Part shown: piece by piece, positions 4,719 through 27,098 of the stretch
How the letters are laid out: every line of letters begins with the position of its first letter
Position numbering within the stretch: position 1 is the stretch's first letter
Source of the DNA: a virus
Direction: 5' to 3' (one strand)
Virus record (IMG/VR): IMGVR_UViG_3300024359_000022
Location: 1-32,411 of that record
Length of the DNA stretch: 32,411 nt
The notes under the pieces: generated by a model
What the model was told of the DNA's origin: nothing
The model's input: only the letters and a program-made list of their open reading frames with translations
Database searches by the model: none
Made by a program: the position numbers and the translations under genes

Positions 4719-6926
4719 TTATACTAGTGCTAGAGTGCCTTGCGCTTTAACATTTTTAAGATTGCCACAAGCTTGATCGGCGTATGACTTCTTCAGCTCA
4801 CTGCCAACGAACTCACGCCCTAATGACAACGCGCCATAGCCTTCTGATCCAATGCCAGTGAACGGTGAATAAACAAGATCGCCTGGATTGCTCCATAGCT
4901 CAATGCCGCGCTCGATAACGTCGAGTTGAAGTGGACATATATGCTTTTCGTCGGCATTGTCGCGAGCGCCTTCCTTATTCAGCACGCGCCCTTGATCGAC
5001 GGTCATCCATACCGGCGATGCTACTTCCTGCCACCAATCAACGCTATAATCTTCCGGCGACTTAGTGACCGGCACTGCGCTTTCGCCCGGCGCACGAAAA
5101 ACAAGCAAGTAGTCTGGCACGCCAACTCGACTTGATGAACTATCTTTTTTCAATGTTTTATAAAGCAATCCGTGCGCTTTGGTCCGTTGCATTTCAGTCA
5201 CTGGAGATTTCCAAATAGTAATGCGCGAATGAAATAGAAAGCCATGCTTCCAAAATGCGCGAATGATCTCTCCAGAAAAGTCCTGCAATTGAATGCTTCC
5301 ATGCTTCCATTTTGTTGAAAGCAGATCGACGCAATGCACTGCAACCTCACGCCCCGGAATCATGATGCGTTTCATTTCCTCAATTAAGTAATCAAAATGC
5401 TTCATGAATTCTTCCATGTCTTCGCAGTTTCCCATATCCTGCGGATCTGCCGAATATGTGAACAAGTCAGCGAATGGCGGCGAAAAGATAGAAAATCCGA
5501 CTGAGTGGTCTGCAATCTTTTCACGTGCCACTCGGACGCAATCACCATGATGCACCGTCCATCCGTCGCCATTGTGAGTTGTTACGTCGATCTTTGCGTC
5601 GATTGTTTCTGATTCACTTGTCTTTAATTCTGATGCTGCTTTTTTCATAGATAATTGCATTGTTTCATGCTGTTTAATTTTACGTTGTATAGATTTAATA
5701 ATTGCGCCCTCGGTTTCCGCTTGGACCACAAATGCGTTTACTTCTTTAGTTTGTCCGAATCGATATGACCGACGCAAAGCTTGGTAGAAGTCCTCAAATG
5801 AGTAACTGAGTCCTACGAATGCGACGTTGTTGCAGTGTTGCCAGTTCAGGCCGAATCCGGCGATGCTTGGCTTTGTGATAATGACGCGAGCGTCACCATT
5901 TGAGAAGTCGGCAAGGCGTTTGCGCTTTACGCTTGGCTTATCGCTCCCGCGCACCTCTACGGCGTCCGGTATGCGTGCTTTTAGTTCGTCGGCTTCCAAA
6001 TTAGTATTGCACCATACAATCCATGTCTCTGATGAGTTATTGACCATATCAGCAACTGCATCGCAGCGAGCTGGCGCAGTGAGTCGCATTTCTTTATGCA
6101 TCGTCGTTGCGCTTAACGTTGCGATTCTGAAAAGGTCGTCGCCAGTTTCTTTGCTTTGATCGACTTCGACGGTAATGTCGGTCATGTTCAACTTCGGCAA
6201 TATATATCCGGAGTCATCAAAGCCTAAATCAGAAGGCATTGAAATGCACGCGGCCCACGACGCGAGCCATTTCCAGAACTCATCCTCGGCGTGTTTCTTT
6301 AGTCGCCAGTCGCCAGTGTTGAACGTGTCATTGATGAAATATGTGCAAAGCATTTGCGCCGGCGTGCAAATGCCGAGAAAGTCAGCATGCTGCCCTAATT
6401 CAGTATAATCATTAGGCGATGGCGTCGCTGTGCAGCATAAACGATATGGCGTATTCTTAAATGCTTCTGTCAATGATTTGCGAGTCTTGCCAGTAAAACT
6501 CTTTAGTATTGAGCTTTCATCCAGGACCACTCCAGCAAAGTCGCCACACTCAAAATGATCCAGCTTTTCATAGTTGGTGATGTATATGCCAGGCCCGCAA
6601 ATCTCTGAATGATCAGAAACGACGCTTGCTTGAATGCCAAACTTTACACCCTCAAGTCGTGTCTGTTCGCCAACTGCAAGCGGCGCAAGAATCAACACGC
6701 TGCCGCCTGTCTTGCGGAATACTTGCGACGCCCATTCAAGTTGCTGCGCAGTTTTACCTAATCCGCAATCCTCAAATAGTGCCGCTCGGCCCTTATGAAC
6801 TGCCCATCGCAATACGTGCGATTGCCATTCAAATAGCGGAGCAATAATCGGCAATGGATCAAATCCATAATTGGCCGAGTGCTTTCGCTTCGTATCAATA
6901 AATTCATTATAATTTTTTGCATTCAT
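4719..6926 (-). CDS. SNF2-like helicase fused to beta-class DNA methyltransferase
   Basis: The 735-aa protein has two parts. Residues 1-430 form a SNF2/SF2 ATPase with Walker A DCGLGKT (53-59), Walker B LDES (135-138), TATPSPND (166-173) and motif VI QALRRSYRFGQ (382-392). Residues about 450-735 form an amino-methyltransferase with the catalytic SPPF (482-485) ahead of the SAM-binding SPFTGIGS (687-694). That order is typical of beta-class N4-cytosine or N6-adenine enzymes; HICPLQ (662-667) is also usual in this phage family. It probably translocates along or remodels DNA while methylating the genome, perhaps for anti-restriction, but the target is unknown. It overlaps a 41-aa gene upstream by ATGA. 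I see no nuclease domain. Confidence 0.9.
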   Translation of the reverse strand: MNAKNYNEFIDTKRKHSANYGFDPLPIIAPLFEWQSHVLRWAVHKGRAALFEDCGLGKTAQQLEWASQVFRKTGGSVLILAPLAVGEQTRLEGVKFGIQASVVSDHSEICGPGIYITNYEKLDHFECGDFAGVVLDESSILKSFTGKTRKSLTEAFKNTPYRLCCTATPSPNDYTELGQHADFLGICTPAQMLCTYFINDTFNTGDWRLKKHAEDEFWKWLASWAACISMPSDLGFDDSGYILPKLNMTDITVEVDQSKETGDDLFRIATLSATTMHKEMRLTAPARCDAVADMVNNSSETWIVWCNTNLEADELKARIPDAVEVRGSDKPSVKRKRLADFSNGDARVIITKPSIAGFGLNWQHCNNVAFVGLSYSFEDFYQALRRSYRFGQTKEVNAFVVQAETEGAIIKSIQRKIKQHETMQLSMKKAASELKTSESETIDAKIDVTTHNGDGWTVHHGDCVRVAREKIADHSVGFSIFSPPFADLFTYSADPQDMGNCEDMEEFMKHFDYLIEEMKRIMIPGREVAVHCVDLLSTKWKHGSIQLQDFSGEIIRAFWKHGFLFHSRITIWKSPVTEMQRTKAHGLLYKTLKKDSSSSRVGVPDYLLVFRAPGESAVPVTKSPEDYSVDWWQEVASPVWMTVDQGRVLNKEGARDNADEKHICPLQLDVIERGIELWSNPGDLVYSPFTGIGSEGYGALSLGREFVGSELKKSYADQACGNLKNVKAQGTLALV

Positions 6927-7917: not shown

Positions 7918-9219
7918 TTATTGGTTGGTTAATCGTTGTATCAAGGTTAAGAATGCCTTGGCTGCCGTAGCGGGTACAACTCCATTTCCCAAGAGCCTAA
8001 GTCTGTCCACCCTACTGGAAGACCCATTAGTTGCTCGACCCAGTCCGGGTTCAGCTTGCCCTGTAACTCTGTCTGTGCAGGTAAGTCCTTTGTCTGTCCC
8101 TTGTAGGCTCGACCTTCTGCTCCCTTCCAGTCCCTTGCTTGTGGCGTTGACCACGACCCTTGGCTCTTCCCAGTCGTGCTGGGGTTCGCTTGGTCTGGAT
8201 GGCCAAGATCCCCTCTGGCAGCCATTGCGCTCAAGCACTTGCTCGCCTGTGAGTTTCCCTTGATCCTGTATTTCTCCTCCCCGACTGTGACTGTTGGCCA
8301 GTTCTTGGCTGCCTTGCGACTGTGATCCATATCTGGATAGTGAACTTGCTCCCTTAGGTTCATACACCCTGCGTTCTTCTCCGCTCTGGTCTGTGCAAGT
8401 TTCTCTGGAGTCCGAACTAAGTTGTTGGAGTCGAAGGTCTGAGGTGTTGCCCAGTTCTTCTTCTCGTAAGTCTCGACCGCATCCCGCAGCTTCGCTCCGT
8501 AGCTTGTCCCGCTCTCTCTTGTTGCCTTGAAGCCCGTTAAGGTCATCTCCACATTGCTTACTACTCCACCCTCCACGCAACCCGCCACGCTCGCTGTTGG
8601 CCAAGCCAAGGATGAAGACTCGCTTTCTCTGGTGAGGCGCGCCGACTTCAGCCGCTGAGAATACTCCTGCCGTTGCTCGGTAACCCAAGCCTTCCAGCTC
8701 TCGGAGGACATACTGGAGAACTGACTCCCCGTCTGCTGTCTTGGCTGAGATGATTCCTTCAACGTTTTCGAGGAAAACAATTCGAGGTTGGCAGTCCCGG
8801 ATTCCGTCTCGGATGTATGGGAAGAGGTGTCTTGGGTCTTCAGTTGCTTGACGCTTTCCAGCAGCTGAGAATGGCTGACACGGGAATCCGCCAGAGAGGA
8901 TGTCCACGCATCCACGAAACTCCCCGTAAGGGAAGGTTTTAACATCCGTGAACACAGGTGCCGCATCCAGTTCTCCCGCTTCCATCTTTGCAACCAAGTT
9001 CGCGACAGGGAATCCTTCCCTCTCCACGTAAGCGATCTCTCGCAGATTTGGGAGAACTCTTCGGAGTCCAAGCCCAATGCCTTCGTATCCAGAGCAGAGG
9101 CTGAGGTGTGTAATTGTTTTGGTATTATCCACATTGTATCTTTCTGTTAATTTAATTGATTTCGGCGGCGTCGTGCCTTCGATAGATCCAACAAAGGCAG
9201 TTTGAATTGCCCTTGTCAA
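7918..9219 (-). CDS. DNA cytosine-5 methyltransferase (Dcm-like)
   Basis: The conserved C5-methyltransferase motifs are in order: I (SLCSGYEGIGLGL, 40-52), IV with the catalytic Cys (GGFPCQPFSAAG, 110-121), VI (ENVEG, 151-155), VIII (HQRKRVF, 196-202) and X (LLGNGVVPATAAKAF near the end). Between VIII and X the protein is low-complexity (S/G/R/E-rich) and carries ANS/GNT repeats, so the target recognition domain is unclear. The start is uncertain: the TTG at 9219 coincides with a TTGACA promoter hexamer, while the GTG at 9132 (residue 30, just before motif I) overlaps the ATG of a second, fully internal frame. Base usage differs from neighbours, with few GCGC/GCCG words and more CC/GG, which suggests recent acquisition. 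It probably protects phage DNA from restriction. Confidence 0.88.
   Translation of the reverse strand: MTRAIQTAFVGSIEGTTPPKSIKLTERYNVDNTKTITHLSLCSGYEGIGLGLRRVLPNLREIAYVEREGFPVANLVAKMEAGELDAAPVFTDVKTFPYGEFRGCVDILSGGFPCQPFSAAGKRQATEDPRHLFPYIRDGIRDCQPRIVFLENVEGIISAKTADGESVLQYVLRELEGLGYRATAGVFSAAEVGAPHQRKRVFILGLANSERGGLRGGWSSKQCGDDLNGLQGNKRERDKLRSEAAGCGRDLREEELGNTSDLRLQQLSSDSRETCTDQSGEERRVYEPKGASSLSRYGSQSQGSQELANSHSRGGEIQDQGKLTGEQVLERNGCQRGSWPSRPSEPQHDWEEPRVVVNATSKGLEGSRRSSLQGTDKGLTCTDRVTGQAEPGLGRATNGSSSRVDRLRLLGNGVVPATAAKAFLTLIQRLTNQ
7947..9134 (-). CDS. Long overlapping frame inside the C5 methyltransferase gene (WPT-repeat protein)
   Basis: This 395-codon frame is on the same strand, offset +1, and lies entirely within the methyltransferase gene. 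It starts at an ATG whose last base begins the methyltransferase GTG (ATGTG at 9134-9130). The product is rich in Trp, Ser and Gln and has four spaced repeats: LAWPTAS, NWATPQTFD, NWPTVTVG and SWSTPQARDWKG. It ends with LNPDWVEQLMGLPVGWTDL and a short tail. Each WPT-type repeat is the same DNA as an ANS/GNT/NAT repeat in the other frame. From memory, WPTP repeats followed by such an LMGxPxGWT segment recur in phage C5 methyltransferase proteins, so this frame looks conserved and not random. Whether it is translated alone, reached by frameshifting, or only a relic is unresolved. Confidence 0.5.
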   Translation of the reverse strand: MWIIPKQLHTSASALDTKALGLDSEEFSQICERSLTWRGKDSLSRTWLQRWKRENWMRHLCSRMLKPSLTGSFVDAWTSSLADSRVSHSQLLESVKQLKTQDTSSHTSETESGTANLELFSSKTLKESSQPRQQTGSQFSSMSSESWKAWVTEQRQEYSQRLKSARLTRESESSSLAWPTASVAGCVEGGVVSNVEMTLTGFKATRESGTSYGAKLRDAVETYEKKNWATPQTFDSNNLVRTPEKLAQTRAEKNAGCMNLREQVHYPDMDHSRKAAKNWPTVTVGEEKYRIKGNSQASKCLSAMAARGDLGHPDQANPSTTGKSQGSWSTPQARDWKGAEGRAYKGQTKDLPAQTELQGKLNPDWVEQLMGLPVGWTDLGSWEMELYPLRQPRHS

Positions 9220-25136: not shown

Positions 25137-25146
25137 AGATTAATTG

Positions 25147-26031
25147 TTAGGCAGATGTAACGCGGACGCCGAAGTCTTGACCTTGTGCAACTCCGTAGAG
25201 AAGTCCAAGGGAATACTTAAGCTCGCCAGCGTTCTTGTCGTACCAACGACGCCATTGGAGAGGAATACCAAGGCCTGGAACTTCGATGTCAACGATCTCG
25301 CCGCCATTTTCAACAAAGCCTTCGGAGTCAACACGACGGCCAGCGAAAAGGAGAGAAGAGCGGTGGAATGCGAATGCTGCAAGGTTTTCGCTGTTTGCGT
25401 CGGCTTGATCAGACTCGAAAAGGTCGAATTTGTTTACACGTGGTGCAACGCCTTCTGTCTTTTCGCTGATGATGCCGGGCATTTCTGCATCGTTAAGAGT
25501 CTTCAAGATCGAACCGTAATAGGTTGGATTCATGAATACGCCACGACCAGTTTTTGGTGCGCCCTTAGTTGCAGTCAAAGTTGCGCCCAAGTCAATCAAA
25601 TCATCGCGGTCAAAGTTGGCCGCTGTGATTGTGGTGCTTGTTGCGAAGTTTGCCGCAGTGATAAGATTCCAGACATCGCCGAAGATCTTGTCGCCGATTG
25701 CATTCAGTGCAGGCTCAAGGAAAAGGTCGTTTAGACGGATGCTGGATTTTGAACGCTCAACATCCTTGAATCCGTAAACGAATCCGTAGAAAGTATCGAG
25801 AGTAACGGTCTTGGCTGTCATCGCAGTATTTTGCGAAGTGTAGCCGCTCGACAAGTCAACTGCTGTTGGCTTGGTTGGGTAGCGTGTAGTTACGCTTGCG
25901 CCCTCGCTCGACACTTCACTGGAAAAGTCAGTAACAAGTGCAGATAAAGGTTGCAGTAGTGATGTAAGAGCAGGAAGTGACTCCTGCGCGATTTCTGCCA
26001 GATTAGCTCCGGCGATTGTATTTGTAGCCAT
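25147..26031 (-). CDS. Major capsid protein (HK97 fold)
   Basis: The 294-aa protein begins MATNTIAGANLAEIAQESLP and contains VTDFSSEVSSEGASVTTRYP, the likely N-arm/E-loop region, then FDRDDLIDLGATLTATKGAP and FMNPTYYGSILKTLN, typical of the spine helix and P-domain of HK97-fold capsids. It follows the ClpP-type protease-scaffold gene, the canonical position. A strong terminator follows directly. The leader is A-rich with no SD, unexpected for the most abundant protein unless the host translates such leaders well. No separate decoration protein of gpD type is recognised. Confidence 0.87.
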   Translation of the reverse strand: MATNTIAGANLAEIAQESLPALTSLLQPLSALVTDFSSEVSSEGASVTTRYPTKPTAVDLSSGYTSQNTAMTAKTVTLDTFYGFVYGFKDVERSKSSIRLNDLFLEPALNAIGDKIFGDVWNLITAANFATSTTITAANFDRDDLIDLGATLTATKGAPKTGRGVFMNPTYYGSILKTLNDAEMPGIISEKTEGVAPRVNKFDLFESDQADANSENLAAFAFHRSSLLFAGRRVDSEGFVENGGEIVDIEVPGLGIPLQWRRWYDKNAGELKYSLGLLYGVAQGQDFGVRVTSA

Positions 26032-26057: not shown

Positions 26058-27098
26058 TTATTTAGGAAGTCGAGATTTGTTAGCAAGATGCCATGCGTTC
26101 TTTTTGCCTGGCTCTTGGCGATTGTATTCGTTCCAGTATTCGTCGGTGCTTGCAAACATGTTTACCACGTTTTCATTGTCAGACGATACTGGTGTAACTG
26201 TATTTTGCATCATGATCTCCGCCGCTTTAGCTGCAATCAAATCAGCGCCAGCACTGCGTGCCTCGCCCAATTCAACTTCATGCTTTGCAACGATTGTGTC
26301 AATCTGCTCGGTCAAAGCTGTTTCTTTAGCTTCAAACTCTGCAATCTGCACGGCATTTTTTGCAAGCTGGTCAACATTAGATGCAATCTCAGCATTAAGC
26401 TCTTTGGCCTCTGCTTCAAAAGATGCGCGAATTTCTTCGACTTCGCTCTTATGCTTTGCCGCGATGCTTGCAACGATCTTGTCAACCGGCAATGTTTTGT
26501 CGATCTTTTCAAGTGCTGCATTCATGTCGCCGATAGATGCCGCTGCCTCAAGGCCGCCTTCGATCTCGTCGATAAACTCGGCTTTAAGTGCTTCGTCTGC
26601 TGTCAGCCATGTTTCGGCGTCCATTAGTTGCTCAAGCTCTTCTGTGCTATATCCGCTGCGGCTGTATGCGTTAATGATGTTAAGTTTCATCTTATCCATC
26701 AAGTCGGCATCTTTGCGTAGTTTGTCGCTATCTCCAACTGATACGGTCCAAGGGTTATGGATCATTAGGAAAGCATTTGATGCCATGTGGATTTCATCGC
26801 CAGCCATTGCAATGACAGATGCCATGCTTGCTGCGATGCCGTCAATATGTGTAACAACTTTTGCGCTGTGGCGCTTCAGTGTATTATAGATCACATTGCC
26901 CTCGACGATTGAGCCGCCTGGCGAATTAATGCGAAGATTGATTGTTTCAATTTCGCCTAGTGCATCCAGCTCATCCATAAACGATTGCGCGTTTACTTCA
27001 TAGCCGCCGATCTCGTCGTAAATGTAAACATCGGCAGACGCTGCTACGTCTTTCGTTGCTTCCATTGCGAACCAGTTATTCTGTGGTTTCTCTGTCAT
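26058..27098 (-). CDS. ClpP-like head maturation protease fused to scaffold-like C-terminus
   Basis: Residues 20-190 match the S14/S49-like phage protease: NSPGGS (58-63), the nucleophile in GIAASMAS (S91) and H114 in MIHNPW, followed by GYSTEELEQLMDAETWLTADE near 149-169. Residues about 195-300 are a long Glu/Ala/Lys helical region resembling a scaffold, like the lambda C/Nu3 arrangement. The C-terminus (NEYNRQEPGKKNAWHLANKS) probably binds capsid protein. It should guide capsid assembly and cleave scaffold, portal or capsid ends. The start overlaps the portal gene by 23 nt. Confidence 0.88.
   Translation of the reverse strand: MTEKPQNNWFAMEATKDVAASADVYIYDEIGGYEVNAQSFMDELDALGEIETINLRINSPGGSIVEGNVIYNTLKRHSAKVVTHIDGIAASMASVIAMAGDEIHMASNAFLMIHNPWTVSVGDSDKLRKDADLMDKMKLNIINAYSRSGYSTEELEQLMDAETWLTADEALKAEFIDEIEGGLEAAASIGDMNAALEKIDKTLPVDKIVASIAAKHKSEVEEIRASFEAEAKELNAEIASNVDQLAKNAVQIAEFEAKETALTEQIDTIVAKHEVELGEARSAGADLIAAKAAEIMMQNTVTPVSSDNENVVNMFASTDEYWNEYNRQEPGKKNAWHLANKSRLPK

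Follow-up and report, generated by a model that had tools for sequence, protein, structure and literature searches.

Does a phage cytosine methyltransferase gene whose +1 frame stays open over nearly its whole length encode one protein or two? The question is raised by a 32,411 nt stretch of DNA (IMG/VR virus record IMGVR_UViG_3300024359_000022, positions 1 to 32,411; hereafter the window), a tailed-phage record with portal, terminase and replication genes. On its minus strand, an open reading frame (ORF) of a C5 cytosine methyltransferase, F1, occupies 7918–9219 (433 aa counted from the TTG at 9219), and a second frame, F2, lies at +1 relative to it, nested almost wholly inside F1 and ending 29 nt before the F1 end. 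The original prediction, made from the DNA letters, had described this 395-codon frame inside the methyltransferase frame, and both ORFs are indeed present. Three explanations had been offered with it, namely true dual coding, a programmed frameshift, or paired indels, of which only the first survived: homologues, open frames and selection on both frames favor it, paired indels are excluded and a programmed frameshift is unlikely. Dual coding of the methyltransferase gene is real, as both frames are conserved, are under selection and have their own starts. We further consider it likely that a single gene here specifies two proteins, which would form a two-subunit C5 methyltransferase with F1 as the alpha and F2 as the recognition (beta) subunit.

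Searching each frame separately, as had been suggested along with the original prediction, yielded F2 homologues in quantity. The F2 search of IMG/VR found at least 170 relatives (80 of which were kept), mostly full-length and 41–84% identical in the best segment, and three bacterial genome loci and phage C75C1 were also recovered. With F1 as the only query, 80 loci were obtained, many on contigs that the F2 search had also hit. None of the 90 distinct full-length F1 homologues pooled from all searches, including the F1-alone set, had a stop between the F2 start and the C-terminal end of that frame. When the codons of F1 were shuffled synonymously in 74 homologues with codon usage preserved, 531 F2 stops were expected (about 7 per gene) versus 8 counted, all of which were located upstream of the F2 start or past the F2 end, and 42 of 22,200 shuffles were stop-free. 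The same shuffling of the window F1 resulted in 10.1 ± 2.1 F2 stops and no stop-free sequence in 300; the single stop counted in the tested span sits upstream of the F2 ATG. The third (+2) frame contained 9–33 stops per gene in the homologues. The openness of F2 is far beyond chance.

Selection on each frame was estimated by an overlap-aware ratio of nonsynonymous to synonymous changes (dN/dS), in which changes are counted by their effect in both frames (S, synonymous; N, nonsynonymous), so that SN/SS is the F2 dN/dS at F1-synonymous changes. F2 gave SN/SS values of 0.25 in the catalytic part, 0.31 in the middle and 0.19 in the motif IX region, and NN/NS values of 0.82, 0.51 and 0.10, respectively, with the caution that SS sites are few (about 160–410). 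The control was the +1 frame of neighbor genes on the same contigs, where SN/SS was 0.93–0.96 and NN/NS 1.02, that is, neutrality, although the mosaic nature of phage genes makes neighbors an imperfect clock; the +2 frame would have been an unfair control, since third codon positions in that frame coincide with second positions of F1. The dN/dS of F1 itself was 0.08–0.25 in the constrained catalytic part and 0.57–0.93, near neutral, in the middle. Likewise, F1 codon position 3 changes fastest in the catalytic part, while in the middle and C-terminal part the fastest is F1 position 1 (F2 position 3), and therefore F2 leads there. These rates bear out the earlier impression that in the middle third F1 is of low complexity and F2 looks more protein-like. 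Among 144 pairs of equal protein identity, four-fold-degenerate F1 sites of the catalytic part differed less than those of neighbor genes (0.18 versus 0.33), and 120 of the pairs showed the lower value in F1. F2 is under purifying selection along its whole length, and the per-frame constraint falls on both frames, not on the methyltransferase frame alone. Long shadow ORFs do arise by composition alone in some genes, and the window has other long antisense ORFs, which could favor the explanation that codon usage or constraint on the nucleotides keeps the second frame open as a side effect and no F2 protein exists. The expectation of 531 stops under preserved codon usage, the stops in the +2 frame, the fast third positions of F2 in the middle, and SN/SS and NN/NS values that indicate amino-acid-level selection in F2 and neutrality in the neighbors leave this explanation a negligible probability, and a shadow ORF from composition was rejected on the shuffles and the neighbor-gene dN/dS.

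F1 is a C5 cytosine methyltransferase chain with motifs I–VIII and X, as had been noticed in part from the letters alone. It matched Pfam PF00145 with 115.4 bits (cutoff 22) over residues 37–279 of the 433-aa ORF and phrog_363 at 4e-55, and its match to M.HhaI in the Protein Data Bank (PDB) covered motifs I–VIII and ended at motif VIII. An AlphaFold2 model, built from 70 homologues with the rows from the annotated phage collection left out, showed a large domain (residues 1–178) with a predicted local distance difference test score (pLDDT) of mostly 80–96 and a confident C-terminal motif-X helix (387–402), and residues 183–382 between them scored mostly 30–50. No motif-IX-like peptide was found in the F1 frame of the window. 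F1 is thus without a recognizable small domain (target-recognition domain, TRD, and motif IX) and does not form a complete single chain of the PF00145 kind.

The features that F1 is without have candidates in F2. F2 matched phrog_1008 (5.5e-12) and phrog_26627 (3e-7), and all 73 F2 homologues scanned matched phrog_1008. The four WPT-type repeats announced by the original prediction were found in F2 of the window at residues 178 (WPTA), 228 (WATP), 279 (WPTV) and 328 (WSTP), and the same DNA reads LANSE, LGNTS, LANSH and VVNAT in F1, so the two sets of repeats do share their DNA; F2 homologues have 1–7 such repeats. A similar pattern, P[STCA]PT[ILV][TASV], is the TL motif described for C5 recognition domains (PMC2413257), a resemblance that may serve as a lead only. 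Before the repeats lies a helix (residues 144–172) in which W147, W150, Q154, R155, E157, R161 and K163 are invariant in the homologue alignment. Toward the C-terminus, LNPDWVEQLMGLPVGWTDL probably represents motif IX, an assignment made by motif, position and relatives, because of the gp77/gp90 relatives, a group of loci with this segment in the F1 frame, and the matches of the F2 C-terminal profile. In gp77 of Druantia and gp90 of Tucker, LPTP repeats, an IX-like segment and motif X stand in a single frame, adjoining Druantia gp78 and Tucker gp91, respectively, which bear motifs I–VIII; gp77 matches phrog_1008 (6e-79), as F2 does, and also phrog_116, a profile that includes the catalytic part as well. 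In these two mycobacteriophages (L211:1477-2572 and L219:1318-2314) the methyltransferase is encoded by two consecutive, slightly overlapping genes.

In four loci (L234, L246, L259 and L275) the IX-like segment is in the F1 frame, approximately 30 residues before GNGVV, and PF00145 aligns to residues 1–303 of the L275 protein (profile 1–315), through the IX-like region. The F2 C-terminal profile detects the segment in all four proteins, a match that is partly circular, since a DNA pattern for that very peptide had served to select the loci. They represent a subtype in which the LPTP-repeat frame stays at +1 and motifs IX and X are in the catalytic frame, and this arrangement implies that motif IX has moved between frames. 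The possibility that these four are single-chain enzymes was rejected, since their LPTP repeats are in the +1 frame; among the loci collected by then, no single-frame protein was found with motifs I–VIII followed by two or more WPTP-type repeats.

How common the split is was estimated by scanning viral contigs for DNA encoding NPx(F/Y)VEWxMG, which gave at least 80 loci. The catalytic domain was found in 76 of the 80 sampled, and relative to it the peptide was in the +1 frame in 69 of 76, with F1 open through in 68; the remaining loci were same-frame (five) or offset by two (two). Over the 68 loci the mean open F2 run to the motif was 266 codons versus 80 in synonymous shuffles. In a related gene on the reverse strand of locus L252 (9260–10137), a run of GA-type dinucleotide repeats (RERERERER) apparently shifted the frames and left the motif-IX peptide at offset two. 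The same-frame arrangement of LMGxPxGWT and motif X that the original prediction took as usual is not the norm here: the split is (69/76), and the same-frame form was seen in 4–5 sampled contigs and the two mycobacteriophages. Within one phylum, 17 of 299 genomes contained phrog_1008, and there the frames overlap at offset +1 in every locus with both profiles placed. That a few relatives have motifs IX and X in a single frame might suggest that sequencing indels or recent paired frameshifts split an ordinary methyltransferase between frames in the window contig. However, independent contigs, phage isolates and bacterial genomes show the same arrangement with both frames intact. Its presence in dozens of contigs, at F2 identities as low as about 41%, excludes paired indels or sequencing error, for which we see practically no likelihood.

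The two frames appear to begin at the same site. The ATG of F2 and the GTG of F1 share one base in ATGTGGAT, behind a single purine-rich stretch. Since a stop leaves this GTG as the only F1 start codon at or upstream of it in 55 of the 74 relatives with ATGTGGAT, F1 probably starts at GTG 9132, not at TTG 9219. Nearly all homologues without ATGTGGAT keep one start per frame in another arrangement, with the F1 ATG 7–10 nt upstream of the F2 ATG (L062, L073, L075 and L084) or the F2 ATG 5–11 nt upstream of the F1 ATG (L026, L070 and L074). These starts bear on the explanation that F2 arises only when ribosomes translating F1 shift frame, so that motifs I–VIII are fused to the F2 recognition part. 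A single chain would then hold both catalysis and recognition, and the frames are only one base apart. Such a fusion would be without motif X, however; F2 keeps a conserved start of its own and selection acts on its N-terminal part; the needed shift is +1, the rarer kind; and the slippery heptamer types that were scanned for are absent from the window gene. Programmed frameshifting was rejected on the start-codon and slippery-site evidence, and we judge it very improbable.

In M.EcoHK31I, the gene of the small polypeptide is reportedly located inside that of the large one in another frame (a finding attributed to Lee, Kam and Shaw, 1995), and the nesting of F2, the predicted small-subunit frame, at +1 in the F1 gene is like this layout. 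C5 methyltransferases of two subunits are known, M.AquI and M.EcoHK31I (PMC3404938). The M.AquI enzyme consists of two polypeptides split after motif VIII, and in M.EcoHK31I, which recognizes YGGCCR, the large polypeptide contains motifs I–VIII and X and the small one motif IX, with the predicted TRD on the large subunit (PMC3404938). The locus in the window resembles the latter in that the predicted large subunit F1 has motifs I–VIII and X and the motif-IX-like LNPDWVEQLMGLPVGWTDL occurs in F2 only. Unlike in M.EcoHK31I, the overlap covers nearly the whole gene from a shared start site, and the F1 middle is near neutral and predicted to be disordered, with the conserved repeats in F2. As the large subunit thus has no predicted TRD, the locus is filed as a variant, not a member, of the M.EcoHK31I kind. 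It differs from M.AquI in retaining motif X on F1; closer to the AquI form is the gp78/gp77 pair of the mycobacteriophage. In Paenibacillus phage Tadhana, both overlapping frames (TADHANA_54 and TADHANA_55) are annotated as DNA-cytosine methyltransferase and the inner one matches the F2 profile, but, unlike in the window, the inner gene is annotated with a start internal to the outer gene and not shared with it, and F1 identity to the window is about 29%. The closest annotated phage relative is C75C1, in which both frames are open, F2 is 42% identical over its full length, and F1 alone is annotated.

We propose that ribosomes would start F2 at the ATG and F1 at the GTG two bases on, from the overlapping ATGTG, by alternative initiation. 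F1 would be the catalytic alpha subunit, responsible for binding of S-adenosylmethionine (AdoMet) and methyl transfer through motifs I–VIII and closed by motif X. F2 would be the beta subunit, supplying motif IX and the WPT-repeat region, most likely the target reader, and the two would assemble into a single C5 cytosine methyltransferase modifying phage DNA. Several points weigh against this proposal. For this phage, we infer independent F2 translation, subunit assembly, the TRD role of F2 and methylation from comparative sequence. Neither a Pfam or NCBIfam match above cutoff nor, with the F2 profile included, a relative in the PDB was found for F2. Modeled alone by AlphaFold2, F2 was poor (mean pLDDT 55, predicted template modeling score 0.23) except for helix 144–172, and the motif IX and TRD assignments stand apart from any solved fold. 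Finally, recognition is proposed on F2, unlike the large-subunit TRD of M.EcoHK31I (PMC3404938).

Some of these points would also fit an F2 that is a genuine but independent phage product, for example a regulator, a restriction partner or a counter-defense protein, overprinted on the gene and not a methyltransferase subunit: F2 has no Pfam family or solved relative, and its whole length is selected, including 170 residues without counterpart in known methyltransferases. However, wherever both profiles were placed, F2 lies over a C5 catalytic gene, in most cases at +1, it supplies the middle that F1 is without, motif IX is found in F2 except in a few genes that have it in F1, and the gp77-type relatives join an F2-like part to motif X. 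We regard an independent product as unlikely and favor the two-subunit methyltransferase, whose features are listed in Table 1.

Table 1. Features of the two overlapping frames in the window
Feature	Position	Strand	Details and evidence
F1 (alpha), C5 cytosine methyltransferase	7918..9132	−	404 aa from the probable start GTG 9132; PF00145, phrog_363
F2 (beta), second coding frame	7947..9134	−	395 aa, ATG start; homologues, no internal stops, purifying selection, phrog_1008
F1 catalytic large domain, motifs I–VIII, residues 1–178	8599..9132	−	M.HhaI PDB match, pLDDT, dN/dS
F1 middle, residues 183–382, low-complexity, predicted disordered	7987..8586	−	pLDDT, dN/dS
F1 motif X GNGVVP, residues 382–387	7972..7989	−	Invariant G382, N383, G384; next helix pLDDT about 90 or more
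F2 conserved helix, residues 144–172	8619..8705	−	Invariant residues; pLDDT >90 over most
F2 WPT-repeat region, proposed target-recognition region	8100..8603	−	1–7 repeats per homologue; F2 codon position 3 fastest
F2 motif-IX-like segment LNPDWVEQLMGLPVGWTDL, residues 361–379	7998..8054	−	SN/SS 0.19, NN/NS 0.10; in-frame relatives
ATGTG overlapping starts, ATG for F2 and GTG for F1	9130..9134	−	ATGTGGAT in 74/92 homologues
AGAAAG, shared purine-rich stretch like a ribosome-binding site, 5 nt before ATG	9140..9145	−	Upstream consensus AGAAAGATACA in homologues

Elsewhere in the window, a single 735-aa ORF at 4719–6926 (−) has an N-terminal part like a helicase (phrog_62, phrog_16) and a C-terminal part like a DNA methyltransferase (phrog_67). 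A 270-aa ORF at 26077–26889 (+) is antisense to the phage gene 26058–27098 (−), and further long antisense ORFs are at 25144–25734 and 26088–26627.

The window locus is best read as a variant, with near-total overlap, of a class that is widespread and mostly mis-annotated and has M.EcoHK31I as precedent. Annotation of such loci is inconsistent: both frames are listed in Tadhana, only F1 in C75C1, and only the F2 frame in Synechococcus phage Ssp-JY39, a Microcystis phage, Sphingomonas, Roseicitreum and Alfacinha1, under names ranging from "hypothetical protein" to "cytosine-specific methyltransferase". The families phrog_1008, phrog_27243 and phrog_26627, two of them labeled unknown function, appear to be second-frame proteins of C5 methyltransferase genes. 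In our literature searches, no description was found of a wider class of such dual-frame C5 methyltransferases. It is possible, and we suggest it tentatively, that C5 methyltransferases with catalysis and recognition in two frames form a large, mostly unrecognized class, in which WPT repeats come and go as recognition modules, every such change rewriting a disordered and freely variable stretch of the catalytic protein, and motifs IX and X have moved between frames.

To our knowledge, few established overlapping genes of prokaryotes are dual-coding on the same strand almost throughout a stretch of about 1.2 kb; here such coding looks ancient, widespread and testable. The near-neutral middle of F1 set against the selected F2 is a natural case of divided constraint on shared DNA. 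As gene callers report one frame or the other, many "hypothetical proteins" of phages and prophages (phrog_27243, phrog_26627) are probably missing methyltransferase halves, and many annotated methyltransferases may be inactive alone.
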